DNA from: Roseobacter sp. GAI101
Lineage (GTDB): Bacteria; Pseudomonadota; Alphaproteobacteria; Rhodobacterales; Rhodobacteraceae
DNA length: 64,000 nucleotides
Direction: 5' to 3'
Assembly: GCF_000156335.1 (NCBI RefSeq)
Contig: NZ_DS999213.1
Span: 2,171,549-2,235,548, forward strand
Part shown: positions 18,518-31,018 of the stretch, piece after piece
Numbering within the stretch: position 1 is the first letter of the stretch
How the letters are laid out: every line of letters begins with the position of its first letter
Made by a program: the position numbers and the translations under genes
Notes under the pieces: model-generated
The model's input: the letters and a program-made list of their open reading frames with translations, nothing else
Told to the model about the DNA's origin: nothing
Database searches by the model: none

Positions 18518-18588
18518 TCTATTGCCTAATGTGCAATTGTCCCCTAGCGTCCCCGCAAGGTTTGAGTGAGAGCTTTGGGAGGAGCAGG

Positions 18589-21303
18589 ATGTCAAAACTA
18601 TCAAGCGTGGCGATTCTGGGCGGCGGGCCTGCGGGGCTTTACACCGCGATCTTGTTGCGGCGCAAAATGCCCCACGTCCGCGTAAAGCTTTTCGAACAGA
18701 ACCCCCAAGGTGCCACCTTTGGCTTTGGCGTGGTATTCTCGGATCAGGCGCTGGCGTTTCTGAAGTCAGCGGACCCCGAGATTCACGACCTGCTGACGCC
18801 CCATATGGAACAGTGGCAAAACATGACCCTCCACCTGCCCACAGATCAGGTTGTGCTGGACGGGGTCGGGTTTTCCGCCGTTGGCCGGCTTGAGCTGATC
18901 GAGATCCTGCGCAAACATGCGCTGGCCTTGGGCGTCGAGATGTCGTTTGACCACCTGATCACCTCATTGGACGAGATTGATGCCGATCTTATTGTCGGGG
19001 CCGACGGGCTGAATTCACTGGTGCGCCGGACGTTCGAGGCTGATTTCGCCCCGCAAATCGACCATTTCACCAACCACTTTGCGTGGTTCGGCACCGACCG
19101 CCCCTTTGATACCCTGACACAAAGCTTTATCGAGACTGATCTTGGCCCGCTGAACGCGCACCACTACCGGTTTGCGCCGGATCGCAGCACGTTTATCATC
19201 GAATGCGAGGCCGAGACGTTCCAGAACTACGGCTTTGCCGACATGACCGAAGACGCCAGCGCCGCCCTGTGCCAGTCCCTGTTTGCGGATGTTCTGGGCG
19301 GGACCAAGTTGATCACGAACAAATCGCTTTGGCGGCAGTTCCCGCGGCTTTGGTGTGAAAACTGGGTCTCGGGGCGGCATGTCATCATTGGCGATGCAGC
19401 ACATACCGCGCATTTTTCCATCGGGTCCGGTACGCGCCTCGCGCTTGAGGATTGCATCGCGTTGGTCAACGCCCTGGCCACGGATGCCGACATTGATGCC
19501 GCCTTGGCCACGTTTCAGGCCGACCGTTTGCCGGTGGCGAAAAAGATGGTGCAGGCGGCAAACACCTCTGCCCTCTGGTACGACAATTTCGGCGACAAGA
19601 TGGCGCTTGCCCCGCTGGATTTCGCGTTTGACTACATCACCCGCTCCGGCCGTGTGGACATGGACCGGTTGCGCAAAATGGCCCCGGCATTCGCGGCCCG
19701 TTACGAGGGGCGGCCCGCCCAGATCACGGACCCGGTTGCCGACATGGTGCCCGGCGCGGTCGAGATCGGGTTTGACAAGACGCAGCACGCCAACTGCTCT
19801 GACATCCTGTGGCAAAACCTTGCACGCAACCCCGACAGCACCGCCATCATTACCCCCGATGGCCGGATCAGCTATGCCGCACTGATCACGGATGCCGCGC
19901 GTTGGGGCAATGCGTTCATCGCCGCCGGTTTGAAACGTGGCGAACGGATCGCATTCCTCCTGGATGATACCGCTGCCTATCCTGCTGCCTTCTTTGGGGC
20001 TGTGCGGGCAGGATTCGTGCCAGTGTTGCTGAACACGATGACCACGCCCGAGGTGTTGACCTTTTTCCTCAAAGACAGTGCTGCACGGTTTGCGATCTGC
20101 GACACGGCGCTGGCGGACAGGTTTGACGCGACCGTAATGACAGGCACCGATCTTGAGACTGTGATCGTCGTCGGAGGTGATGCAGCCGGTTTCATGACAG
20201 ACGCAGCTTTCCTTGAAAACCAACCCGACACGCTGGCCTGCGCGGATACCGGCCCCGATGATATGGCGTTCTGGATGTATTCTTCAGGCTCGACAGGCAT
20301 GCCAAAGGGCATCGTGCATCTGCATCACGACATGGCCTATACCCAAGCGTCATTTGGCGTTCAGATCTTGCAACTGCGCCCTGATGATGTCTGCTATTCC
20401 GTCCCCAAGATGTATTTCGCATACGGGTTCGGCAACTCCGCCACCTTCCCGTTTTCGGTCGGCGCTGCGGTCTTGCTGATGCCCGGACAGCCCCGCCCCG
20501 AGGCCGTGTTATCGGCGATCGAAACCTGCAAGCCCACGGTGCTGTTCGGCCTGCCGACCTTGTTCACCGCCGTCGCACGGCATGAAAATGCGGCGACGAC
20601 CGATCTGTCCTCTGTGCGTCAAAGCATGTCCGCCGCCGAAATTCTGTCAGAGGATGTCTATAAAACATGGGTCGATCTGGTGGGTCACGGCCCGACCGAG
20701 GGGCTGGGATCGACCGAATTACTTCATGTCTACCTGTCGAACACATTGCAGGATCACCGTCCGGGGGCCGCTGGGGCGCGGGTACCCGGCTATGAAATCC
20801 GGCTCGAAACCCCTGATGGCACCCCTGCACAGCCGGGCGAAGAGGGCGTGATGTATGTGCGCGGTACCTCGTCCGCGCCGATGTATTGGAACCGCCCCGA
20901 CAAGACCGCCGATACGATGCGCGGCGACTGGATCTATACCGGGGACCGCTTTGTCGAGCGTGACGGGTATTACTATTTCCAAGGCCGCGCCGATGATCTG
21001 ATCAAGGTGTCCGGACAATGGGTCTGGCCGCTGGAAGTCGAACGCTGCCTGAACGAACACCCCGATGTGCACGAATGCGCCGTGCTGGCGCATCAGCTTG
21101 ACGACCGCCGCATGACCCTGCGCGCCATCGTGCATCTGCGCGACGGCATTACGGCGGATGACACCCAAAGCGACGCATTGCGCGGCTTCGTCAAATCCCG
21201 GCTACAGCCGTATAAATACCCCCGCCTGATCGATTATGTCGCTGAATTGCCCAAGACCGGCACCGGCAAGATCGACCGCCAAGCGTTGCTGCACCGCCCC
21301 TGA
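18589..21303 (+). CDS. Fused flavin monooxygenase / aryl-CoA ligase
   Basis: 904 aa with two complete enzymes. Residues about 1-385 are an FAD aromatic hydroxylase: GGGPAG dinucleotide fold at 11-16 and GDAAHTAHFSIGSG near 267, closest in style to salicylyl-CoA 5-hydroxylase/anthraniloyl-CoA monooxygenase. Residues about 400-904 are an AMP-forming acyl-CoA ligase of the benzoate-CoA ligase type: YSSGSTGMPKG near 563 and C-terminal GTGKID near 890. The ATG at 18589 has a GGAGGAG site. It heads a run with gentisate-pathway genes, so the inferred job is hydroxybenzoate (salicylate, or 4-hydroxybenzoate with side-chain shift) to its CoA thioester to gentisyl-CoA. The two steps are encoded by separate genes in the salicylate (sdg) pathway of Streptomyces. 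Confidence 0.85.
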   Translation: MSKLSSVAILGGGPAGLYTAILLRRKMPHVRVKLFEQNPQGATFGFGVVFSDQALAFLKSADPEIHDLLTPHMEQWQNMTLHLPTDQVVLDGVGFSAVGRLELIEILRKHALALGVEMSFDHLITSLDEIDADLIVGADGLNSLVRRTFEADFAPQIDHFTNHFAWFGTDRPFDTLTQSFIETDLGPLNAHHYRFAPDRSTFIIECEAETFQNYGFADMTEDASAALCQSLFADVLGGTKLITNKSLWRQFPRLWCENWVSGRHVIIGDAAHTAHFSIGSGTRLALEDCIALVNALATDADIDAALATFQADRLPVAKKMVQAANTSALWYDNFGDKMALAPLDFAFDYITRSGRVDMDRLRKMAPAFAARYEGRPAQITDPVADMVPGAVEIGFDKTQHANCSDILWQNLARNPDSTAIITPDGRISYAALITDAARWGNAFIAAGLKRGERIAFLLDDTAAYPAAFFGAVRAGFVPVLLNTMTTPEVLTFFLKDSAARFAICDTALADRFDATVMTGTDLETVIVVGGDAAGFMTDAAFLENQPDTLACADTGPDDMAFWMYSSGSTGMPKGIVHLHHDMAYTQASFGVQILQLRPDDVCYSVPKMYFAYGFGNSATFPFSVGAAVLLMPGQPRPEAVLSAIETCKPTVLFGLPTLFTAVARHENAATTDLSSVRQSMSAAEILSEDVYKTWVDLVGHGPTEGLGSTELLHVYLSNTLQDHRPGAAGARVPGYEIRLETPDGTPAQPGEEGVMYVRGTSSAPMYWNRPDKTADTMRGDWIYTGDRFVERDGYYYFQGRADDLIKVSGQWVWPLEVERCLNEHPDVHECAVLAHQLDDRRMTLRAIVHLRDGITADDTQSDALRGFVKSRLQPYKYPRLIDYVAELPKTGTGKIDRQALLHRP

Positions 21304-21318
21304 ATGACCGGAGACCCC

Positions 21319-22014
21319 ATGAGCTTTATCTTTCCTCCTGCCCCCACCCCCAGCGTCGCCATCGCCGGATCGACCGACCGCATCCCAGTGCGCCGTATCT
21401 TTTGTGTGGGGCGCAACTATGCTGCCCACGCTATTGAAATGGGCAAAGACCCCGACCGGGACCCTCCGTTCTTTTTTACCAAACCCGCCGACGCGATGGT
21501 CGAGGATGGCCAGACGATCCCCTATCCGCCCGAAACCGAAAATTTCCACTACGAGGCGGAATTGATCGCCGTCATCAGCACGGGCGGGCGCAACATCGCG
21601 CAAGCGGACGCTTTGGATCACGTTTGGGGCTATGCTGTCGGCAATGATCTGACCCGCCGCGACCTTCAGCTTGAGGCACGCGAAAAGGGCCGACCCTGGG
21701 ACTGGGGCAAAGCCTTTGACCGCTCGGCGGTGATCGGGCCTGTCCATGCCGCAAGCGATGTGGGCCATCTGGCACAAGGGGCGATCAGGCTGACGGTGAA
21801 TGGCCAGCCCCGCCAAGACGCCGATCTGGCCGAACTGATCTGGTCGGTGCCCGAGGTCGTTTCGATCATCTCGCAGTCCATCGAACTGCGGCCTGGCGAT
21901 CTGATCATGACAGGTACCCCCGCTGGCGTCGGGCCGCTGCTGGAAGGCGATACATGTGTTGTCGAAATCGAAGGCCTGGGGCAGGTTACCACCCATATTG
22001 GCCCGCGCGCCTGA
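21319..22014 (+). CDS. Fumarylpyruvate hydrolase (fumarylacetoacetase family)
   Basis: 231-aa FAH-family hydrolase. Motifs: GRNYAAHAIEMG, FFTKPADA, the metal-binding YEAELIAVI, GNDLTRRDLQ and GDLIMTGTPAGVGP. In the gentisate route it cleaves fumarylpyruvate to fumarate and pyruvate. The ATG at 21319 has a GGAG site six bases upstream; a start at 21304, directly after the ligase stop, is possible. It lies between the fusion gene and gentisate dioxygenase, which supports the substrate. Confidence 0.88.
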   Translation: MSFIFPPAPTPSVAIAGSTDRIPVRRIFCVGRNYAAHAIEMGKDPDRDPPFFFTKPADAMVEDGQTIPYPPETENFHYEAELIAVISTGGRNIAQADALDHVWGYAVGNDLTRRDLQLEAREKGRPWDWGKAFDRSAVIGPVHAASDVGHLAQGAIRLTVNGQPRQDADLAELIWSVPEVVSIISQSIELRPGDLIMTGTPAGVGPLLEGDTCVVEIEGLGQVTTHIGPRA

Positions 22015-22035
22015 TCCGAAAAAGGGAGAGAGACC

Positions 22036-23136
22036 ATGACCAAAGAACCTGATCACGAGACGGTTGCCCACGGCATGCAACCCGAAGATACGCCTGCGCT
22101 TCGGGCGTTGTACAAGGGGTTCGAGGCGGAAAACCTGATCCCGCTTTGGAACCAGCTTGGCGATCTGATGCCGATGCACCCCAAGCCCAAGGCGGTGCCG
22201 CACATCTGGAAATGGTCGCGCATTCTACCGCTGGCCGAAGCGTCCGGTGAACTTGTCCCCGTGGGCCGTGGCGGCGAACGCCGCGCGCTTGGGCTGGCGA
22301 ACCCCGGCCTTGGCGGCAACGCCTATGTCAGCCCGACCCTGTGGGCCGCGATCCAGTATCTGGGGCCAAAGGAAACCGCGCCCGAACACCGCCATTCCCA
22401 GAATGCCTTTCGGTTCGTGGTCGAAGGTGAAGGCGTCTGGACGGTGGTAAACGGCGATCCCGTGCGCATGTCGCGCGGTGACCTGTTGCTGACGCCGGGG
22501 TGGAACTTTCACGGGCATCACAATGTCACGGACAAGCCAATGGCATGGATCGACGGGCTGGACATCCCCTTCAGCCAGCATAATGACGTCGGCTTTTTCG
22601 AATTCGGCACCGAACATGTCACCGATTATGCCACCCCCAACTTCAGCCAGGGCGAACGGCTCTGGGCCAACCCCGGCCTGCGCCCGCTCTCAAGGCTCGA
22701 GGATACCGTGAGCAGCCCGCTGGGGGCGTATCGCTGGGAACACACCGACCGCGCCTTGACTGAACAGCTGCTGCTGGAAGACGAAGGCATTCCCGCCACC
22801 GTCGAACAAGGCCACGCCGCGATCCGATATGTGAACCCCACGACGGGCGGCGATGTGATGCCGACGATCCGCTGCCAGTTCCACCGCTTGCGTGCCGGCG
22901 CATCCAGCAAGACCCGCCGCGAGGTGGGATCATCAGTGTTTCAAGTGTTCGAAGGCAAAGGTTCGGTTGTACTGGACGGCGTAGAACATGCGCTCGACAT
23001 CGGCGACATGTTCGTCGTGCCCTCGTGGATTTCATGGTCGCTGCAAGCCGAAACGCAATTCGATCTGTTCCGCTTTTCCGACGCGCCGATCATAGAACGG
23101 TTGAATTTCGGACGCACCATGGTGGTCGAGGAATGA
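22036..23136 (+). CDS. Gentisate 1,2-dioxygenase
   Basis: 366-aa bicupin iron dioxygenase that opens gentisate to maleylpyruvate. The first cupin carries EHRHSQNAFRF with the iron-binding His pair; a second cupin lies near residues 275-345. GGAG-rich ribosome-binding site upstream. The stop overlaps the ATG of the maleylpyruvate isomerase-like gene, so the ring-cleaving enzyme and the next enzyme are coupled. Confidence 0.93.
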   Translation: MTKEPDHETVAHGMQPEDTPALRALYKGFEAENLIPLWNQLGDLMPMHPKPKAVPHIWKWSRILPLAEASGELVPVGRGGERRALGLANPGLGGNAYVSPTLWAAIQYLGPKETAPEHRHSQNAFRFVVEGEGVWTVVNGDPVRMSRGDLLLTPGWNFHGHHNVTDKPMAWIDGLDIPFSQHNDVGFFEFGTEHVTDYATPNFSQGERLWANPGLRPLSRLEDTVSSPLGAYRWEHTDRALTEQLLLEDEGIPATVEQGHAAIRYVNPTTGGDVMPTIRCQFHRLRAGASSKTRREVGSSVFQVFEGKGSVVLDGVEHALDIGDMFVVPSWISWSLQAETQFDLFRFSDAPIIERLNFGRTMVVEE

Positions 23137-23666
23137 CAACCACAGACGCGGCCCTTGCAGCTTTTGTTGCGCGCCAAGGCAAGGGCGCGCGTTACGATGC
23201 GCAGGCGGCCCCGGCGGACGCACTGGCGATGGCCCGTAGGGGCACGGCCTATTTTGCCCGTCTTCTGAACGGGCTGGGCGATGCCGATCTTGACGCGCCA
23301 TCGGCTCGCGCGGGGTGGTCACGACGCGCGGTGATTGCGCAGACCGGATACCATGCCCGCCACCTTGGGCTTTTCATCGCCGCCGCGCAGACTGGTACCG
23401 GCCGGGACCGGCCGCTGGCCCCCTCCCCGGCGGAAATAGCCTTGGGTGAAACCCTCCCGCCGCGCGCCTTGCGGCACCTGATCGAACACGCCAGCGTGCA
23501 TCTGAACGTCGCATGGCGCGACATGACGGATGGGGATTGGGGGTTGACCTGCAACGGCATCGCCCTGCGCGATACGCCGGTGCTGCGTGCGCGGGTGCTT
23601 TGGCAGAACGCGCTGGACCTGAATGCCGGAGGACGCGTCAAAGACGTGCCCGACGACCTGCTTTAG
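23133..23666 (+). CDS. Maleylpyruvate isomerase-like protein (DinB/MDMPI fold)
   Basis: 177 aa. The N-terminal helical bundle has the MDMPI/DinB pattern with spaced His residues (near GYHARHLG and IEHASVHLN) that could bind a metal. In actinobacteria this fold gives mycothiol-dependent maleylpyruvate isomerase; Proteobacteria more often use a glutathione-dependent zeta-GST. Overlap with gentisate dioxygenase (ATGA) argues strongly that this is the isomerase converting maleylpyruvate to fumarylpyruvate. The thiol cofactor is uncertain. Confidence 0.8.
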   Translation: MTTTDAALAAFVARQGKGARYDAQAAPADALAMARRGTAYFARLLNGLGDADLDAPSARAGWSRRAVIAQTGYHARHLGLFIAAAQTGTGRDRPLAPSPAEIALGETLPPRALRHLIEHASVHLNVAWRDMTDGDWGLTCNGIALRDTPVLRARVLWQNALDLNAGGRVKDVPDDLL

Positions 23667-23668
23667 AA

Positions 23669-23705
23669 AACGGCGGCGCGGGGTAAACCCTACGCCGCCG
23701 CCGTT
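23669..23705. terminator. Terminator between convergent gentisate and selenoprotein genes
   Basis: A 10-bp GC-rich stem (AACGGCGGCG with CGCCGCCGTT) and a 17-nt loop lie directly after the isomerase stop and reach the stop of the facing gene. The arm ends in AA/TT on both sides, so it can act in both directions. Confidence 0.65.
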
Positions 23706-24225
23706 ATTCATCGCTCAAGGCCGCCATGATCTGATCATAAGCCTCACGCGCTTTGACGCGCATTTCGTCGTCGGTGGCATCCTGAATAGGATGCGGCACC
23801 AACACGTATCTTGCGCCTTCCATGCCTAGTGCCTTGCGCTGCGTTTCGGCGGCTTGGCCAAATGCGCTCGAGGCGACGGAAACGGACGGGATCCCCTGGA
23901 TTTCAAACCAGACTGTATCGTGCATACTGCACGTGGTACATGATCCTCAATCCGCCAATGCCTCTATCATGAAATCGCATTCATCGCGGATTTGATGGCG
24001 CAATGCGTCGGGGCACGGCTTGGCGAAAGTCGGCTTGGTATAGCGGCGGATTTCAACGGCGGGCGCGCCTTCGGCTATCAAGCGGTCCAGTTCGTCCAGC
24101 AGGATATTGCCGCGCGGTTTGCTGATGTTCAGCAGCCCTACGACACCCTGGACCGATCCGGATCGTTCGGTAATCTGACGCACGACCGGGACGCGTTCAT
24201 CCGTCGGGTCGAGAATTATTGTCAT
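23704..24225 (-). CDS. UGSC-family selenoprotein (in-frame UGA = Sec93)
   Basis: One 173-aa reading frame interrupted by a single TGA at 23949-23947. Before it the frame ends ECDFMIEALAD; after it, in the same frame, come GSCTTCSMHDTVWFE and then VLVPHPI. Read through, the site is D-U-G-S-C-T-T-C, the name-giving motif of the UGSC family, known from marine metagenomes as a selenoprotein family. The second half has no ribosome-binding site before its first ATG, so separate translation is unlikely. AGGAGG precedes the ATG at 24225. The gene is 24 bp behind the thioredoxin-fused gene and downstream of selA, selB and selC. The Sec-x2-Cys spacing suggests redox chemistry; the reaction is unknown. 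Confidence 0.9.
23914..23940 (-). promoter_or_regulatory. Candidate bacterial SECIS element
   Basis: In the mRNA, 6 nt after the UGA, TGTA pairs with TACA as a lower stem. After a small internal loop, CGTGC pairs with GCACG around the apical loop AGTAT. The loop has G at its second place and starts about 18 nt after the UGA. Both fit the general bacterial SECIS model: a short upper stem, a G among the first two loop bases, and a set distance from UGA. Confidence 0.65.
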
Positions 24226-24249: not shown

Positions 24250-25839
24250 CTAGCCCAGATCGATCTTTCTGGAAACGGAAATTGATCCGACCGCCCCCGT
24301 GGCCCAGCCATGGAAGGCCGACGAAAACTTGCCGGCCTCGCCGCCGGCGACAACGATATGGATGTATTCCTTGCCTGCGAATTTCGGGGCAAGCTGCGCC
24401 AGCTTTTCCGGGCCCATCTTTTCGGCATCAGCCTGCGGTATGCCTGCACCGGAATGATCATCCTGGACCATTTCACTTAAGGGGCGCGACGTGACCTCTT
24501 GGATCCGGTCGCGCAGGCGGTCTTTGGAGTATTCGCCATCCACGGTCAGCGTATTGATATGTTCAGGGCACACGACCAGCAGCGCATCGACGGGCAAGTT
24601 GTGTAACTTGGGCATGAAGACCCCCTCTAGCCCCTGCCCCAATGACCCGGCAATCTGGTCGGGCTTGCGCGAGGTCTGGTCGACGATATGCACCGGGCCG
24701 CCGGTCATGGCAAAGACGGTCACGACGGACTCCTCCGCCTTGAATCCGCGTTCAACATGCAGCGGCTCCCACGGCGACACGGCCTCGTTTTCGGCAAAGC
24801 ACATGGTGTATTTCATAGGGTTACCCAACACCGACCGTTCAACGCCCCCCGTCGTGGCCCCGCCAACATTGCGGATCACCAGACGCAGCGCGCGACCGAT
24901 GGTGGCGTTGGCACGGTTGCCCGCGCCCATTGCGCCAAGGCCCGCATTCATCCCGATTTTCTCTATCACGGGGCCGTTCACGATCATGACCGTCGCGGCC
25001 CCCATCGTCGTGGCAGTCACCCCGTGAATGTTGAATTCATCCGTACAAACCGCCTCGACCGCAGCGATGACTACGGGCAGATATTCCGGCTTGCAGCCCG
25101 CCATCACCGCATTGATCGCGATCTTTTCAACGGTACCGACCCCCATGTTCGGCGGCACGGTCGCGATCACCTCTTGCGGATCGCGGTGGGTCCCCGCGAG
25201 CATCCGCATCACCCGTTCGGGCGTCGGCGGCACCAGCGGCAACCCGTCCGAGAACCCCTGATCGAACATGAACTCTGCCACGTCGTCACCGCTGGCAACC
25301 TCAACCTTGCGGGCGCGCAGAACGCTGCCGTCCGCTTCGGCGCGCAGCTTGTCGTAGATTTCGGGATCAAAGTGTTTTGACCCGCAACCCGGCCGCCATG
25401 CGGGCAGGCTGTCCCAGTCGATCTGGGCATTGGGTTGGCGCGTCTCGGTCGCAATCTGATCGGATAGCGCTTGCCAGTCGTCGCGCACGAAACCCTCGAA
25501 TTTGGTGACGACCTTGCCGTCAGCATCAATCCAGAACACGGCAGGTACGATTTCGATGTCCCAATCAAAGGACGCCTTGCATCCCGCATCGGCCAGAACC
25601 GGCATACTCAGAACATGGCGTTGGGCAAAATCCGCGTTTTTGTCGCCGGACTGGCCCAGAACAATCATGTCGATGCCGCTGCCGTAGGCCTTGAACAGCC
25701 CCTCAAGAACAGGGCCCGCGATGTTGCAGGTCTCGCAATCTTCTTTCACGAAACAAACCAAAGCGGGGCCAGTGCCATCAAAGGCATGTGCCGTCCCGTC
25801 CAGATTATCCAGTGTGAAAGAACGCGCCTCGTCGATCAT
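24250..25839 (-). CDS. Thioredoxin-like domain fused to large conserved domain of unknown function
   Basis: 529 aa. Residues about 1-130 look like a thioredoxin/peroxiredoxin-type fold with a CETC pair at Cys35-Cys38. From about 175 to the end is a large domain I cannot name, rich in Gly and small residues (for example GFSDGLPLVPPTPERV, NMGVGTVEKIAINAV and GAMGAGNRAN). It has no signal peptide, so it is cytosolic. I chose the ATG at 25839, preceded by GGGAGGG. It sits between selC and the UGSC selenoprotein on one strand, and the selenoprotein starts 24 bp after it, so the two probably work together in a thiol/selenol redox reaction. That partnership is inference. Confidence 0.7.
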   Translation of the reverse strand: MIDEARSFTLDNLDGTAHAFDGTGPALVCFVKEDCETCNIAGPVLEGLFKAYGSGIDMIVLGQSGDKNADFAQRHVLSMPVLADAGCKASFDWDIEIVPAVFWIDADGKVVTKFEGFVRDDWQALSDQIATETRQPNAQIDWDSLPAWRPGCGSKHFDPEIYDKLRAEADGSVLRARKVEVASGDDVAEFMFDQGFSDGLPLVPPTPERVMRMLAGTHRDPQEVIATVPPNMGVGTVEKIAINAVMAGCKPEYLPVVIAAVEAVCTDEFNIHGVTATTMGAATVMIVNGPVIEKIGMNAGLGAMGAGNRANATIGRALRLVIRNVGGATTGGVERSVLGNPMKYTMCFAENEAVSPWEPLHVERGFKAEESVVTVFAMTGGPVHIVDQTSRKPDQIAGSLGQGLEGVFMPKLHNLPVDALLVVCPEHINTLTVDGEYSKDRLRDRIQEVTSRPLSEMVQDDHSGAGIPQADAEKMGPEKLAQLAPKFAGKEYIHIVVAGGEAGKFSSAFHGWATGAVGSISVSRKIDLG

Positions 25840-25902: not shown

Positions 25903-25997
25903 TGGCGGAGGTGGATGGGAATCGAACCCACCACACGCCTTTTCGGCGCGTCCATGGTTTTGAAGACCAGGGAAGCCACCAGACTCCAGTCACCTCC
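25903..25997 (-). tRNA. selC: tRNA-Sec (anticodon UCA)
   Basis: Reading the minus strand from 25997, a 95-nt tRNA begins GGAGGTGA and ends with an encoded CCA at 25903. The acceptor strand GGAGGTG pairs with CACCTCC. The anticodon loop is CTTCAAA with TCA at 25963-25961, which reads UGA. The variable arm is long (ACGCGCC paired with GGCGTGT), as in class II tRNA-Sec, and the T-loop is TTCGATT. The eighth acceptor pair looks like A-C. Length equals that of E. coli selC. It follows selB by 41 bp. Confidence 0.95.
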
Positions 25998-26038: not shown

Positions 26039-27925
26039 CTATTGCGCGGGCGGGGCCATTTGGCGGGTATCGTCGCTGCGGAAGGTGATGCCTTGGGCGT
26101 CGAAGTGTTCCAGCACCGGGACGATGAATTTGCGCGTCGTGGCCAGTGCTGCGCGGGCCTGACCGGTCGTGAAACGGGTTGCCGGCGGAAAGGCCGCCGT
26201 CAGGTCACGGGCGGCACGGGCAAGGGCATCAGCATGGAAAACCAGCCTTTGGTTCAGACCGACATTGACCATCGCGACGACACGCCCCGTGCCGGTCAAC
26301 AAGGCCAAAAGATCGGCATCATCCGGCGCGTCAAGAACCGTGGCGATGTCGGGCGGTGTTACCGCGCCGTGCCTGATCCGGCCTTCCATATGGTCCAGCC
26401 GTGTGCGCTGCGCATCGGTCAGCAGCGCCCAGGGATCATGGGCGGCAAGGGCAATATGGTCATCCTGTCGGCGCAGCACGCCGTCGGCGATCAACCCGTT
26501 TTCCGCGTGTTTCAAGACCACCTCGGACACAGTGCGGTCTTGAACGACAGCCTGCGGTGCCCATTGCCTGACCGGCTGCGCCGCGTGAAAATCCGTAAGC
26601 CGCGCGCGCATCTCTCCCTGGACAGTTTCCAGCGCTTTGTCCTGAATGACCCATCCGCCTTCAACCACAGTGAACCCGGCAGGCAGGTCCGCCTGCACCA
26701 TTTCTACGCTTTGCCGGCCGATGCGGACGATATCACTTATCCGCGCCGCACCCCGCCCCTTTTTGCACAGGGCCAAGATGATCTGACCTGCATCTTGCGC
26801 CCACCCCGCCTGCATCACCCCCAGATGGGCGGTATCGCCCGATTTCACGGGCAACGCCTGCGGGTCCAGAATGCTACACCCGCCCAAGGTGACAGCCGGT
26901 GACAGGCTGCGCAAAATAGCAGTCTGACCGGCAAAGGCCACGACGCGCTGCCCAAAGCGCAGTTGCGCAAATCCGGTGCCGCCCGGTGCTATCTGCCCGC
27001 CGCCCATCAACCGCACGGTCGCGACCGCATGCGCAGTGCCAAACAGCACGCGAATGTCCTGCATGTGCTTCAGGGGCCGCTTTGCGTCGGGCAGCAGCGA
27101 CAGGCATACATCCAGACAATCGGACGGCGCAAACGCAGCAGCGCCACACAAGACATCGCCGCGTGCGATGCCGTCGACCGCGATACCCCGCAGGTTCACC
27201 GCGACGCGTTCACCGGGGGCGACCGCATCACACGCCTGCCCCCGAGACTGCAAACCACGGACCGCCACCGGTCTGGCCTCAGGGTGTAGCACCATGGGAT
27301 CGTCCAGCGTCAACGCCCCGCCCAAAAGCGTGCCGGTGACCACGGTGCCCATGCCCGGCAGGCTGAACACACGGTCAATGGGCAAGAAAGCCGCCCCGGG
27401 CGACATGCCCTTTGGCAAGGTTTGCAGAACGGCGTCCAACTCTTTGGTCAGCGCCTCCATCCCGCCGGTTTGCAGCGCCGAACATGCGATCACAGGAACC
27501 CCGGCCAGACCAAGTTCCGTCAAGGCTGCAGCAATGGCATCAAGGCGATCAACCATGGCGCTGACCGGCACCAGATCGGCCTTGGTCACTGCGACAAGGG
27601 CGATCGGCACCCCCAAAAGCCCGGCAATCCGCAGGTGTTCAACGGTCTGCGGCGCAACGCCTTCGGCGGCCGACACGACCAGCATCGCACCGCTTGCGCC
27701 CGTGGCACCGCTGACCATGGCGCGGATGAAATCCTCATGCCCTGGCGCGTCGATCAGATCAAGCGTGCCCGAGGGCAAAACGCAATGAGCAAAGCCAAGG
27801 GTGATCGACAGGCCGCGTTGTTTTTCCTGGGCCAGACGGTCGGTTTCGATCCCCGTCAAGGCACGCACCAGCGCCGTCTTGCCGTGATCCACGTGACCGA
27901 TGACGATCATGCAGGCGGTTGTCAT
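26039..27925 (-). CDS. selB: Selenocysteine-specific elongation factor
   Basis: 628-aa GTPase that brings Sec-tRNA to UGA by binding the SECIS hairpin. G1 is GHVDHGKT (10-17), then a switch region with GLSITLGF, G3 DAPGH (59-63) and a TKAD G4 motif near 113. EF-Tu-like domains 2 and 3 follow, then a C-terminal third with winged-helix repeats that bind RNA. The ATG overlaps the selA stop (ATGA). Length is normal for SelB. Confidence 0.96.
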   Translation of the reverse strand: MTTACMIVIGHVDHGKTALVRALTGIETDRLAQEKQRGLSITLGFAHCVLPSGTLDLIDAPGHEDFIRAMVSGATGASGAMLVVSAAEGVAPQTVEHLRIAGLLGVPIALVAVTKADLVPVSAMVDRLDAIAAALTELGLAGVPVIACSALQTGGMEALTKELDAVLQTLPKGMSPGAAFLPIDRVFSLPGMGTVVTGTLLGGALTLDDPMVLHPEARPVAVRGLQSRGQACDAVAPGERVAVNLRGIAVDGIARGDVLCGAAAFAPSDCLDVCLSLLPDAKRPLKHMQDIRVLFGTAHAVATVRLMGGGQIAPGGTGFAQLRFGQRVVAFAGQTAILRSLSPAVTLGGCSILDPQALPVKSGDTAHLGVMQAGWAQDAGQIILALCKKGRGAARISDIVRIGRQSVEMVQADLPAGFTVVEGGWVIQDKALETVQGEMRARLTDFHAAQPVRQWAPQAVVQDRTVSEVVLKHAENGLIADGVLRRQDDHIALAAHDPWALLTDAQRTRLDHMEGRIRHGAVTPPDIATVLDAPDDADLLALLTGTGRVVAMVNVGLNQRLVFHADALARAARDLTAAFPPATRFTTGQARAALATTRKFIVPVLEHFDAQGITFRSDDTRQMAPPAQ

Positions 27926-29313
27926 GGGGCCGTCACCGCGTTGAATGCTGCCGCGATCCGGGGCAGGTCATCATCTGTCACCGTGCGCATGTCCAACAGC
28001 ATCCGGCCTTGGTGTATCCGGCCAATGACCGGTGGATGCGCGTGGCGCAATGCCTTGGCCAGATCATCGGCCGGCAGATCAGGCACACTGACCGAAACCG
28101 CAAAACTGGCCAGATCCTGCTGCGGCATCGCCCCGCCCCCGACATAGGCCGCAGACGGCGCGACCGACACCTCGCAGCCCCCTTGATCGTGCAACATGCC
28201 CGCCAGCAGATCAGCGCGGGCTTGGACCGTCGGCAACGGTTCGGACAACATCCGCAAGACGGGGATGCGGGTCAGCGGATCGTTCGGCGCGCGGTACAGA
28301 CGCAACGTCGCCTCAAGCGCGGCAAGCGAGAGTTTGTCGATGCGCAGGGCACGCAGCAAAGGATGCGCGCGCAGCTGCGCGATGATGTCGGCACGGCCCG
28401 CAATGATGCCCGCCTGTGGCCCGCCCAGCAGCTTGTCGCCCGAGAACATCACAAGATCGACGCCAGCTTTCAAGATATCCGCCACCACCGGTTCATCCGC
28501 CAGCCCGAATGGGGACAGGTCGATCAGAACGCCACTGCCCAAATCCTCGATCAGGATCAGATCACGATCCTTGGCCAGCTTGGCCAGATCCTCGCGCGCG
28601 GGCGAAGCCGTGAACCCCACGATCCGGAAATTGCTGGTGTGGCTTTTCAGCAGAACGGCCACGTCATCCTCAATGGCATCGGCATAGTCGCCAATCCGGG
28701 TCTTGTTGGTGGCTCCGACCTCTTTCAGCACCGCACCGCTTTGGGCAATGACATCGGGCAGGCGGAAGGAGCCGCCGATCTCGATCAACTCCCCCCGTGA
28801 CGCGATGACCTTGCGCCCCATTGCAGTGCCCATCAGGCCAAGAACGACGGCGGCGGCGCAATTGTTGACGATCAGCGCGGCGTCGGCACCGGTCAATTCG
28901 CAAATCAGCGCCTCGGCGTGATCATACCGCGACCCGCGCTTGCCGGTCGTCAGGTTCAGTTCAAGGTTGGACGCCTGCGCGCCGACATCCTGCATCGCCG
29001 CCAAGGCTTCGGGGGCTAGGCGGGCGCGGCCCAGATTGGTGTGAATGATGATCCCCGTGGCATTGACCACTGCGCGCAAATTCGGTGCACGCGCCTTGAG
29101 GATCTGCGCGTGCAGCCCCTGTGCAAAGCGGTCACCTGCAAAATCGGGCAGTTCGGCAGCATGCCCCGCCAGGATATCGACGCGCAGTCGCGACAACAGG
29201 TCACGCAACGCGTCAATGACTTCTTGGCGACTGCACGCATCAATCACCTTGGCGATCGCGGGGCTGTGCAACAGGGTATCAACCTGTGGCAATTGTCTAA
29301 GCTGGCTGTTCAC
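27922..29313 (-). CDS. selA: L-seryl-tRNA(Sec) selenium transferase
   Basis: 463-aa PLP enzyme that converts Ser-tRNA-Sec to Sec-tRNA-Sec using selenophosphate. The PLP Lys lies in SGDKLLGGPQAG around residue 293. N-terminal QLPQVDTLL is typical of SelA. I chose the GTG at 29313, since the family's N-terminus starts there; the open frame continues upstream without homology. It is the first gene of selA-selB-selC. selD, needed for selenophosphate, is not in the window. Confidence 0.96.
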   Translation of the reverse strand: MNSQLRQLPQVDTLLHSPAIAKVIDACSRQEVIDALRDLLSRLRVDILAGHAAELPDFAGDRFAQGLHAQILKARAPNLRAVVNATGIIIHTNLGRARLAPEALAAMQDVGAQASNLELNLTTGKRGSRYDHAEALICELTGADAALIVNNCAAAVVLGLMGTAMGRKVIASRGELIEIGGSFRLPDVIAQSGAVLKEVGATNKTRIGDYADAIEDDVAVLLKSHTSNFRIVGFTASPAREDLAKLAKDRDLILIEDLGSGVLIDLSPFGLADEPVVADILKAGVDLVMFSGDKLLGGPQAGIIAGRADIIAQLRAHPLLRALRIDKLSLAALEATLRLYRAPNDPLTRIPVLRMLSEPLPTVQARADLLAGMLHDQGGCEVSVAPSAAYVGGGAMPQQDLASFAVSVSVPDLPADDLAKALRHAHPPVIGRIHQGRMLLDMRTVTDDDLPRIAAAFNAVTAP

Positions 29314-29409
29314 CTGTCGGCCCTTCCCCCCTGTGCCGCGCCAGTCTAATGGGCCACACAGGCGGGGCAAGGCCGATCGCACCCCGTCAAAAGGAAAGCC
29401 GCAGCAAGA

Positions 29410-30091: not shown

Positions 30092-31018
30092 CTATTCGGC
30101 CAAGGCCTCCGTCACGGCCAGTTCGGCCATCTGCAAGACCGCGTCACGGCTGCTGGCCACGGCGATAAAGCGACCGTTGTGGCAGAACTTTGCGCCTTTC
30201 ACGCCAGACGCGTCCTCAAGCGCGGTGTCCGTCAGGCCGGCCCATGCAGCGGGCAGATCGGCGCGGGTGTCAAAGGTGTCGTCGCCGGTGCGGATCGTGG
30301 TCAACGCCCAATCCGCGCCGCGCGGGTGAACGACGAAAAGCAGATGGTCGGCACCGGCATTCTCTACGCCCGCGCGAAAGGGCATGCCCATCGGAAGCTC
30401 AAGAACATGGCGATCCCCGGCAGCTGTGATAGCGGCCATGACCATCGCCTCGGCGCGGTTTTTGGCAGCTTTGCGGTTGATCTGCGCCTCGACGAAGGCG
30501 CGTGCAATGGGCAGCGCCGCGGCAAAAGCGCGGTCGTCAGCGCCGTCTTCGCGATCATCAAACACCGGCTTGAGCGTCTCAAGCAGCACGGGCAGCGTCA
30601 GTCCGGCGAACAACGGGCCTGCTTCGGAGGCGTTGATCGCGCCATTGTCGATCAGATCGACGGGCACTACGAAACCACGGTCAAATGACGTGTGGATCGC
30701 CTCGATGTCCTGATCCGGCACATCCATCGCGCGCAGGTAGTCGCGACCGTAATGCGCCCAGATCAGGCCGAACGCACTGAAGGGCTGGCCGTTTTCACGC
30801 AGCGGATTGGGCCGCTGGTGGTGATCGAATATCTGCAAGCCCGCATCGAACTGCCCCCCCAGATCATAGATGATCCGGTCTTGGGCAGGCGTGATCCAGT
30901 CCTTGTCACGGGTGCGCACAAGCTGCGCATCCGGAAAAAGGCGCGTCAGGATCACCGAGGACAAAAGTTCGTCCGCGTGAAATCCGCCGGAGTGGGTGAC
31001 AAGGTGCTGGATGGTCAT
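30092..31018 (-). CDS. MYG1-family metal-dependent exonuclease-like protein
   Basis: 308 aa. The N-terminus reads THSGGFHADELLSS, followed by YDLGG and DHHQR, the DHH-type metal-binding motifs of the MYG1/UPF0160 family. Eukaryotic MYG1 is a 3'-5' RNA exonuclease; bacterial homologues are little studied. Length is normal. A 9-bp-stem hairpin between this gene and the upstream rpsU suggests separate transcription units. Confidence 0.88.
   Translation of the reverse strand: MTIQHLVTHSGGFHADELLSSVILTRLFPDAQLVRTRDKDWITPAQDRIIYDLGGQFDAGLQIFDHHQRPNPLRENGQPFSAFGLIWAHYGRDYLRAMDVPDQDIEAIHTSFDRGFVVPVDLIDNGAINASEAGPLFAGLTLPVLLETLKPVFDDREDGADDRAFAAALPIARAFVEAQINRKAAKNRAEAMVMAAITAAGDRHVLELPMGMPFRAGVENAGADHLLFVVHPRGADWALTTIRTGDDTFDTRADLPAAWAGLTDTALEDASGVKGAKFCHNGRFIAVASSRDAVLQMAELAVTEALAE

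Follow-up and report, generated by a model that had tools for sequence, protein, structure and literature searches.

Introduction

UGSC is a family of selenoproteins with a UxxC motif, described in 2008 from Global Ocean Sampling data, where 255 sequences with selenocysteine (Sec) and 21 with cysteine were assigned to it, a fusion to an unnamed domain (UGSC/Unknown_1) was recorded, and a thioredoxin-like fold was suggested (PMC2398784). The family is listed in reviews (PMC13188914, PMC9312934), one of which gives it as NF041046, a curated NCBI model whose name is UGSC family (seleno)protein. Furthermore, selenoproteins with the UGSC motif have been reported in Geodermatophilaceae, together with a tRNA-Sec of CUA anticodon (PMC5330540). 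In the titles and abstract openings covered by a limited literature search, we met no link of UGSC to glycine/proline reductase or to a constant partner, which is not meant as a claim of absence.

The locus considered here lies in a window of 64,000 nt from Roseobacter sp. GAI101 (NZ_DS999213.1), the window being the whole stretch of DNA that was analysed, and all coordinates are positions within it. Judged by its profile matches, the segment 23704-24225 is a member of this already known selenoprotein family. The adjacent partner gene, absent from an earlier reading of the letters alone (hereafter the sequence-only reading), is the more informative part of the locus, and the partner domain and a possible kinship with the GrdB/PrdB reductases are the parts worth following.

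The UGSC Gene and Its In-Frame UGA

On the minus strand, positions 24225 to 23704 make up one gene; its 173 codons include an in-frame TGA, the only one, at 23947-23949, and a TAA follows. It appears as an upstream ORF of 92 aa (23947-24225, minus strand), which terminates at this TGA, and a downstream ORF of 73 aa in the identical frame (23704-23925, minus strand), the TGA and the second ATG being separated by seven sense codons. Translated with TGA as U, the product has 173 aa and carries U93 within ALADUGSCTTCSMHD; AGGAGG stands six nt 5' of the ATG. In profile searches PF24696 (Pfam UGSC) reaches 162.1 bits over residues 4-171 (cut-off 25) and NF041046 (NCBIfam UGSC_fam) 180.2 bits over residues 28-170 (cut-off 125), and the coverage of both sides of the TGA by one profile is more than chance. 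The sequence-only reading had joined the frames of 92 and 73 codons into one gene, across one TGA and seven sense codons, with D-U-G-S-C-T-T-C at the junction as the UGSC motif. The motif is borne out by the translation and by family profiles above cut-off; the coordinates prove exact, with the strand (minus), then unstated, to be added; and the union of the two frames is upheld by their common phase, by the single profile spanning them and by purifying selection on both sides.

Indeed, the protein shares 61-72% of its amino acids with five Sec relatives before the TGA and 68-78% after it, and dN against them is 0.19-0.33 upstream and 0.17-0.26 downstream; since dN is low downstream with a dS that is above 1 or saturated, as it is on both sides, the part beyond the TGA behaves as a conserved protein. 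In an alignment of 32 sequences (A1), the U/C column corresponding to the TGA, i.e., U93 of UxxC, is invariant, as are G27, K64, G94 and D103. Within the membership motif U/C-G-S/A-C, columns 93 and 94 are invariant and columns 95 and 96 are kept in at least 90% of the 32 sequences, and C96 is likely the resolving thiol for U93. The TGA sits in a UG[SA]C motif in 31 of 31 fetched Sec loci. A1 includes five of the eight plasmid hits (L037, L038 and L041 being omitted), leaves out L021, L026, L027, L028 and L032, which we judged close to retained rows, and has L001 replaced by P0001, the window protein.

In a sample of 385 genomes of the class, PF24696 was present in 38, at no fewer than 97 places (a lower bound, at most eight candidates being scored per genome), with copy numbers of up to at least eight per genome. 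Exactly one TGA interrupts 92 of these 97 places, the other five have no stop (one of them ending short of the Sec site), and TAA or TAG is found in none. Within the same taxonomic family UGSC is rare, occurring in 3 of 198 genomes including the window's own, two with Sec and one with Cys. An alignment check for Cys in place of Sec, suggested by the sequence-only reading, came out in its favour: all six A1 homologues without TGA carry Cys at that column. The 54 Cys loci used below were gathered with a pattern requiring Cys at the site, and therefore they are not independent proof of the Sec-Cys match; moreover, L047 is the same record as L036.

Could the TGA be an ordinary stop, the locus then being a pseudogene or two short genes, the second starting at ATG 23925? 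The downstream frame does possess its own ATG and, among the protein-database matches, 22 of 37 measure 95-112 aa, their last residues being LAD (21) or VAD (1), just short of the Sec site. Homologues ending at the TGA were what the sequence-only reading had named as evidence against itself; in the protein database they seem to exist, but the DNA reads on through exactly one TGA at 92 of 97 places, and for this reason we regard the 22 short proteins as a gene-caller artefact. Termination at this codon also fits badly with a dN as low downstream as upstream, with a single profile covering both parts, with class-sample relatives that show TGA there and never TAA or TAG, with homologues that substitute Cys for the codon, and with Sec machinery adjoining the gene, so that we hold it to be very improbable. 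Decoding of the TGA as Trp, Gly or another residue by a variant genetic code seems more improbable still. It could appeal to three database hits (P0002-P0004) that bear Gly or Trp at the site, presumably from gene callers reading the TGA under other codes, whereas the cluster contains a tRNA-Sec with a UCA anticodon, the neighbouring gene at 22036-23136 itself terminates in TGA, and the aligned non-TGA homologues carry Cys. A single selenoprotein gene read through UGA thus appears by far the best reading: purifying selection, TGA conservation, Cys homologues, a bSECIS hairpin and adjacent machinery all sustain the selenoprotein interpretation first made from the letters, and UGA 23947-23949 is almost certainly read as Sec, with SelB, tRNA-Sec and the downstream hairpin, within one UGSC-family protein of 173 aa. 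The many database entries that halt just before the Sec codon show how such genes get lost.

The bSECIS-Type Hairpin and a Likely Terminator

The rules given for bSECIS elements comprise a loop of 3-9 nt located 16-37 nt after the UGA, a stem of 4-16 bp, a G in the first two loop positions and a minimum free energy of -7.5 kcal/mol or lower (PMC13188914). In the window gene the hairpin CGUGCA-GUA-UGCACG (23919-23933, minus strand) agrees with them in loop, stem, G and spacing: the stem has 6 bp, the loop GUA begins with G and lies 19 nt past the UGA, and the 40 nt after the UGA fold with this hairpin at -11.2 kcal/mol, the bare hairpin by itself giving -6.3 kcal/mol.

Across 31 Sec genes, the best hairpin under these rules has its loop at 19 nt in 25 and at 18 nt in 6. 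Set against synonymous-codon shuffles, the energy of the constrained hairpin has a mean z of -1.96 (median p 0.075) in the 31 Sec genes and of -0.15 (median p 0.51) in 55 Cys genes; hairpins under -5 kcal/mol occur in 26 of the 31 Sec genes versus 14 of the 55 Cys genes, and one Sec gene (L035) is a weak exception, at -1.2 kcal/mol. The loop-forming codon U+7 is AGT for all 25 serines found there, although AGT makes up 21 of 309 serine codons in the remainder of these genes; all six cysteines at U+7 are TGT, which accounts for 16 of 93 cysteine codons otherwise, and neither AGT nor TGT stands at this position in any of 54 Cys genes; in all these codon and hairpin counts the sequences are related and the events not independent. 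The pattern indicates that the bSECIS hairpin constrains synonymous codons in the Sec genes. The signal emerges with the bSECIS rules and synonymous-codon controls, though when the 59 nt around the UGA are folded without constraint the result is ordinary, no better than for shuffles (z -0.56).

Just past the UGSC stop, a strong hairpin followed by UUUU (23669-23702, minus strand; -27.1 kcal/mol, z -3.99, with 0 of 200 shuffles as good) is a likely terminator, which a simple pattern scan did not list. A promoter scan of the sel-partner-UGSC cluster performed no better than chance.

Selenocysteine Machinery and Cluster Layout

In minus-strand order the cluster consists of selA, selB, tRNA-Sec, partner, UGSC and the terminator-like hairpin, all collinear, with UGSC as the last gene, 24 nt from the partner; from this layout we infer that selA-selB-tRNA-Sec-partner-UGSC would be co-transcribed. 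The supply of selA, selB and tRNA-Sec by the surrounding genome, asserted before any profile was run, is accurate, the three lying on the same strand just upstream of UGSC. The gene for L-seryl-tRNA(Sec) selenium transferase, selA (27922-29382, minus strand; TIGR00474 573.6 bits, cut-off 267.9), overlaps by 4 nt with selB (26039-27925, minus strand), which encodes a selenocysteine-specific elongation factor of 628 aa with a SelB winged-helix domain (TIGR00475 257.9 bits, cut-off 242.25). The tRNA-Sec (selC, 25903-25997, minus strand), with anticodon UCA, was identified by ARAGORN and by Rfam RF01852 (74.3 bits, cut-off 47). A UPF0160/MYG1 family protein is encoded near the sel cluster (30092-31018, minus strand).

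The full set of SelA, SelB, tRNA-Sec and SelD is present in the host genome, selD being encoded away from the sel cluster, on another contig than selA and selB, as an ORF of 722 aa whose C-terminal part matches the SelD profile (L123:11075-14282, contig C7). Judged by eye from the sequence, the rest of this ORF appears to make it an NADH-dehydrogenase (Ndh)-SelD fusion, and the gene beside it is, on the same ground, presumably a tRNA 2-selenouridine synthase. Ndh-SelD fusions are mentioned in the description of the Global Ocean Sampling selenoproteins (PMC2398784). There are also seven Fdh-alpha matches, of formate dehydrogenase type, in the host genome (G000:C9), none with an in-frame stop, and the class search with TIGR04483 found no PrdB-like genes in it; going by these two families, UGSC may be one of few selenoproteins in this host.

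The link between gene and machinery extends to the class sample, where SelA above cut-off accompanies 34 of the 35 genomes with a TGA-bearing UGSC versus 22 of 350 others (Fisher 1e-32), the single exception being a genome 77% complete. A relative from the same family (G113) has selA-selB-partner-UGSC collinear, with no tRNA-Sec found in the 19.5 kb of that locus, and in three relatives from other families tRNA-Sec and selA-selB are located close to partner-UGSC. The surroundings of more distant relatives were covered in 13 stretches (L109-L121), reaching as far as 10 kb per side if the contig was long enough; they gave no selA, a tRNA-Sec in one (L115) and a single match to the SelB query (L120), of 26% over 256 residues, such as any EF-Tu-like GTPase could give. 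At the window locus, selA, selB and tRNA-Sec beside their own selenoprotein constitute a convenient natural construct.

A Nearly Constant Partner

The partner gene (24250-25839, minus strand) encodes 529 aa, with an N-terminal TlpA/AhpC-TSA-like domain bearing CETC and a C-terminal domain of about 350 residues without a named family. The ORF list begins it at a TTG (546 aa); we place its start at an ATG preceded by GGGAGGG, and a length of about 529 aa is shared by most of the best 120 of 7997 homologues, each at least 68% identical to the window protein. In all of these best 120, C52, C55, C169, C266, C282 and C364 are kept, and C266 is also found in at least 90% of the fusion-type proteins. 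PF00578 (AhpC-TSA) and PF08534 (Redoxin) match the N-terminal part only, and the C-terminal 350 or so residues of the window protein have no Pfam match. Among 56 fusion-type relatives no Pfam, NCBIfam or PDB sequence match recurs for this C-terminal domain, nor did searches of these three resources relate it to the known GrdB/PrdB partners or to anything else.

The association with UGSC is close. The partner C-terminal domain was found at 31 of 32 genome-search loci (31 Sec and 1 Cys; missing in L023), at all eight plasmid loci and at 53 of 54 Cys loci (missing in L081, where 14 kb were examined), and at 22 of the 54 Cys loci it shares a single ORF with UGSC. The redoxin domain is less steady: used as a query, that of the window found no match at any of the 62 loci of the plasmid and Cys sets, and the partner match stops short of it in 20 of the 31 genome-search loci that bear a partner. 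These matches indicate that the constant element of the partner is its C-terminal domain, and that UGSC nearly always adjoins, or is fused to, a partner domain of about 350 residues. From the adjacency and the fusions, it is probable that UGSC works in complex with the adjacent partner.

The family reaches the archaea: four records of Methanobacteriaceae and one further record from the Euryarchaeota (L065, L067, L071, L075 and L081) carry Cys-type UGSC. In a neighbour scan that included archaeal ORFs, class I lysyl-tRNA synthetase was matched by 5 and ThiC by 4 of 95 ORFs, which were not assigned to loci. A pattern requiring Cys at the site, and thus directed to Cys forms only, found no UGSC relative in viral contigs.

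Predicted Fold and Possible Kinship With GrdB/PrdB

The predicted model of UGSC (pLDDT 95.1, pTM 0.89) shows five strands alternating with helices and no beta hairpin, and U93 directly precedes the helix 94-109. Compared with the order of strands and helices in the thioredoxin fold, such strict alternation without a beta hairpin argues against that fold for UGSC, as far as the model goes. The Foldseek/VIA matches are generic Rossmann- or flavodoxin-like folds, uninformative on function, and neither UGSC nor the fusion alignment gave a convincing sequence match in the PDB. From the model of a fusion protein, no new fold is claimed for the partner domain.

In turn, one-by-one scans of members against 18,950 NCBI models hint at the reductases. 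With A1 (n=32), TIGR01917 was matched by 11 members (best E 0.006), GrdF by 6 and PrdB by 4; with the fusion set (A3, n=56), TIGR01917 was matched by 20 (best E 0.0016), GrdF by 10, various_sel_PB by 9 and GrdH by 4. After UGSC_fam itself, models of the GrdB/PrdB kind are the commonest matches, any other model being limited to two members at most per scan. The window protein itself matches none of these GrdB/PrdB-kind models, having no hit to TIGR01917 or TIGR04483 at E<=10; ten other UGSC members, scanned with positions, give at best 15.0 and 14.3 bits, against cut-offs of 602.2 (TIGR01917) and 300 (TIGR04483), and Pfam GRDB is matched neither by the window protein nor by any of the 56 fusion-set members. 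Going by their limits, the matches would place Sec at about residues 340-350 of the GrdB model, which is 431 residues long.

Since searches with PF07355 yielded only partial, C-terminal matches, PrdB-like genes were taken via TIGR04483; they occur in 35 of 289 class genomes, and 20 proteins from 66 places form the alignment A4, where 16 have TGA and the residue three after U/C is Cys in 15 and Asp in 5. With hhalign, the PrdB-like profile aligns to A1 with p 0.0013 and to A2, some of whose database rows show Gly or Trp in place of Sec, with p 1.1e-4, placing U/C on U93 and Cys on C96 at a probability of only 18-57%; ten column shuffles each gave p 0.11-0.79 (A1) and 0.17-0.70 (A2). The hits are weak but repeated, and that the Sec of UGSC corresponds to the Sec of the GrdB/PrdB reductases is suggestive, not proof; UGSC is not classed as a GrdB/PrdB member. 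PrdB-like genes, mostly with a single TGA, are often found in genomes holding many UGSC copies, and one PrdB-like place (G268:C321) has TAG instead of TGA.

Neighbourhoods and a Proposed Mechanism

Thioredoxin genes are annotated in two of the seven annotated plasmid neighbourhoods: an Arthrobacter plasmid carries trxB-trxA-partner-UGSC consecutively, and a Variovorax plasmid has trxB near partner-UGSC. The other five have CoA transferases, tripartite tricarboxylate transporter binding proteins and PEP-mutase-like proteins among their genes. Scans of the neighbours of UGSC loci revealed no recurring pathway, which fits different substrates for each copy, but proves nothing.

Convergent to the UGSC gene, an aromatic-acid cluster occupies 18529-23666 on the plus strand. 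It includes a striking 924-aa fusion of a salicylyl-CoA 5-hydroxylase-like monooxygenase with a benzoate-CoA-ligase-like domain, as well as a fumarylacetoacetate hydrolase, a gentisate-1,2-dioxygenase-like cupin and a protein with a mycothiol maleylpyruvate isomerase N-terminal domain. A role of UGSC in this cluster was considered and rejected: the cluster is encoded on the opposite strand, converging on UGSC, and 18 stretches surrounding relatives showed none of the cluster genes at E<=1e-6 beyond two CoA-ligase matches of 26-28%.

In the mechanism that we propose, the ribosome would read UGA 23947-23949 as Sec using SelB, tRNA-Sec and the hairpin just downstream. The resulting UGSC, predicted to be an alpha/beta domain in which five strands alternate with helices, a helix follows U93 and C96 serves as resolving thiol, would form a working complex with the adjacent partner. 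Electrons would pass from thioredoxin reductase to thioredoxin, from there to a CxxC domain (here the partner CETC) and on to the U93-C96 selenenylsulfide, and the U93 selenolate would attack a substrate held by the partner C-terminal domain. This electron flow and selenolate attack, much as thought for GrdB/PrdB, are put forward tentatively, and a thioredoxin-fed selenol reductase is our best guess for the UGSC-partner pair.

Alternatively, UGSC could be a real selenoprotein but a general thiol-redox or peroxide-defence protein, with a mechanism unrelated to GrdB/PrdB. The UxxC motif, the AhpC-TSA and Redoxin matches of the partner N-terminal domain and the thioredoxin-like fold proposed in 2008 (PMC2398784) would all suit such a role. 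However, the strictly alternating strands and helices of the predicted model are not a thioredoxin fold, the redoxin domain goes unmatched at all 62 loci of the plasmid and Cys sets and lies beyond the match in 20 of 31 partner-bearing loci, the constant part of the partner is its C-terminal domain, and several annotated plasmid neighbours look catabolic. We judge such a general redox or defence role rather unlikely, though a far stronger contender than an ordinary stop or a variant code.

Returning to the selenol reductase reading, UGSC and its partner domain of about 350 residues may represent a widespread two-part class of selenol/thiol reductases in bacteria and archaea, sharing ancestry with the Sec domain of the anaerobic glycine/proline reductases, provided with a different catalytic partner, multiplied in some genomes for different substrates and, in the window lineage, grouped closely with selA, selB and tRNA-Sec while selD is encoded at another place in the genome; we advance this wider view with reserve. 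With a nearly constant partner, natural fusions, some redox neighbours and a possible relationship to the glycine/proline reductases, what was an orphan becomes a two-protein enzyme open to test.

Comparison With Known Systems

With the UGSC family (PF24696/NF041046), the window gene shares the U/C-G-S-C motif and scores above both cut-offs, and no defining difference separates it from that family; its setting is particular, since it shares one collinear cluster with selA, selB and tRNA-Sec and its partner bears a redoxin domain. The UGSC/Unknown_1 fusion (PMC2398784), whose unnamed domain may or may not be the partner domain described here, differs in that the partner domain is here found at nearly every UGSC locus examined, archaea included. 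As to GrdB/PrdB, U/C93 and C96 of UGSC align with U/C131 and C134 of a PrdB-like selenoprotein and E-x-x-GIP comes next in both, a likeness which is a claim about how the protein may work and no more. In contrast, UGSC, at about 170 aa, is shorter than either profile (431 for TIGR01917, 238 for TIGR04483), scores far under the cut-offs of these families, has another neighbour protein, and occurs in Cys forms also in haloarchaea and actinobacteria.
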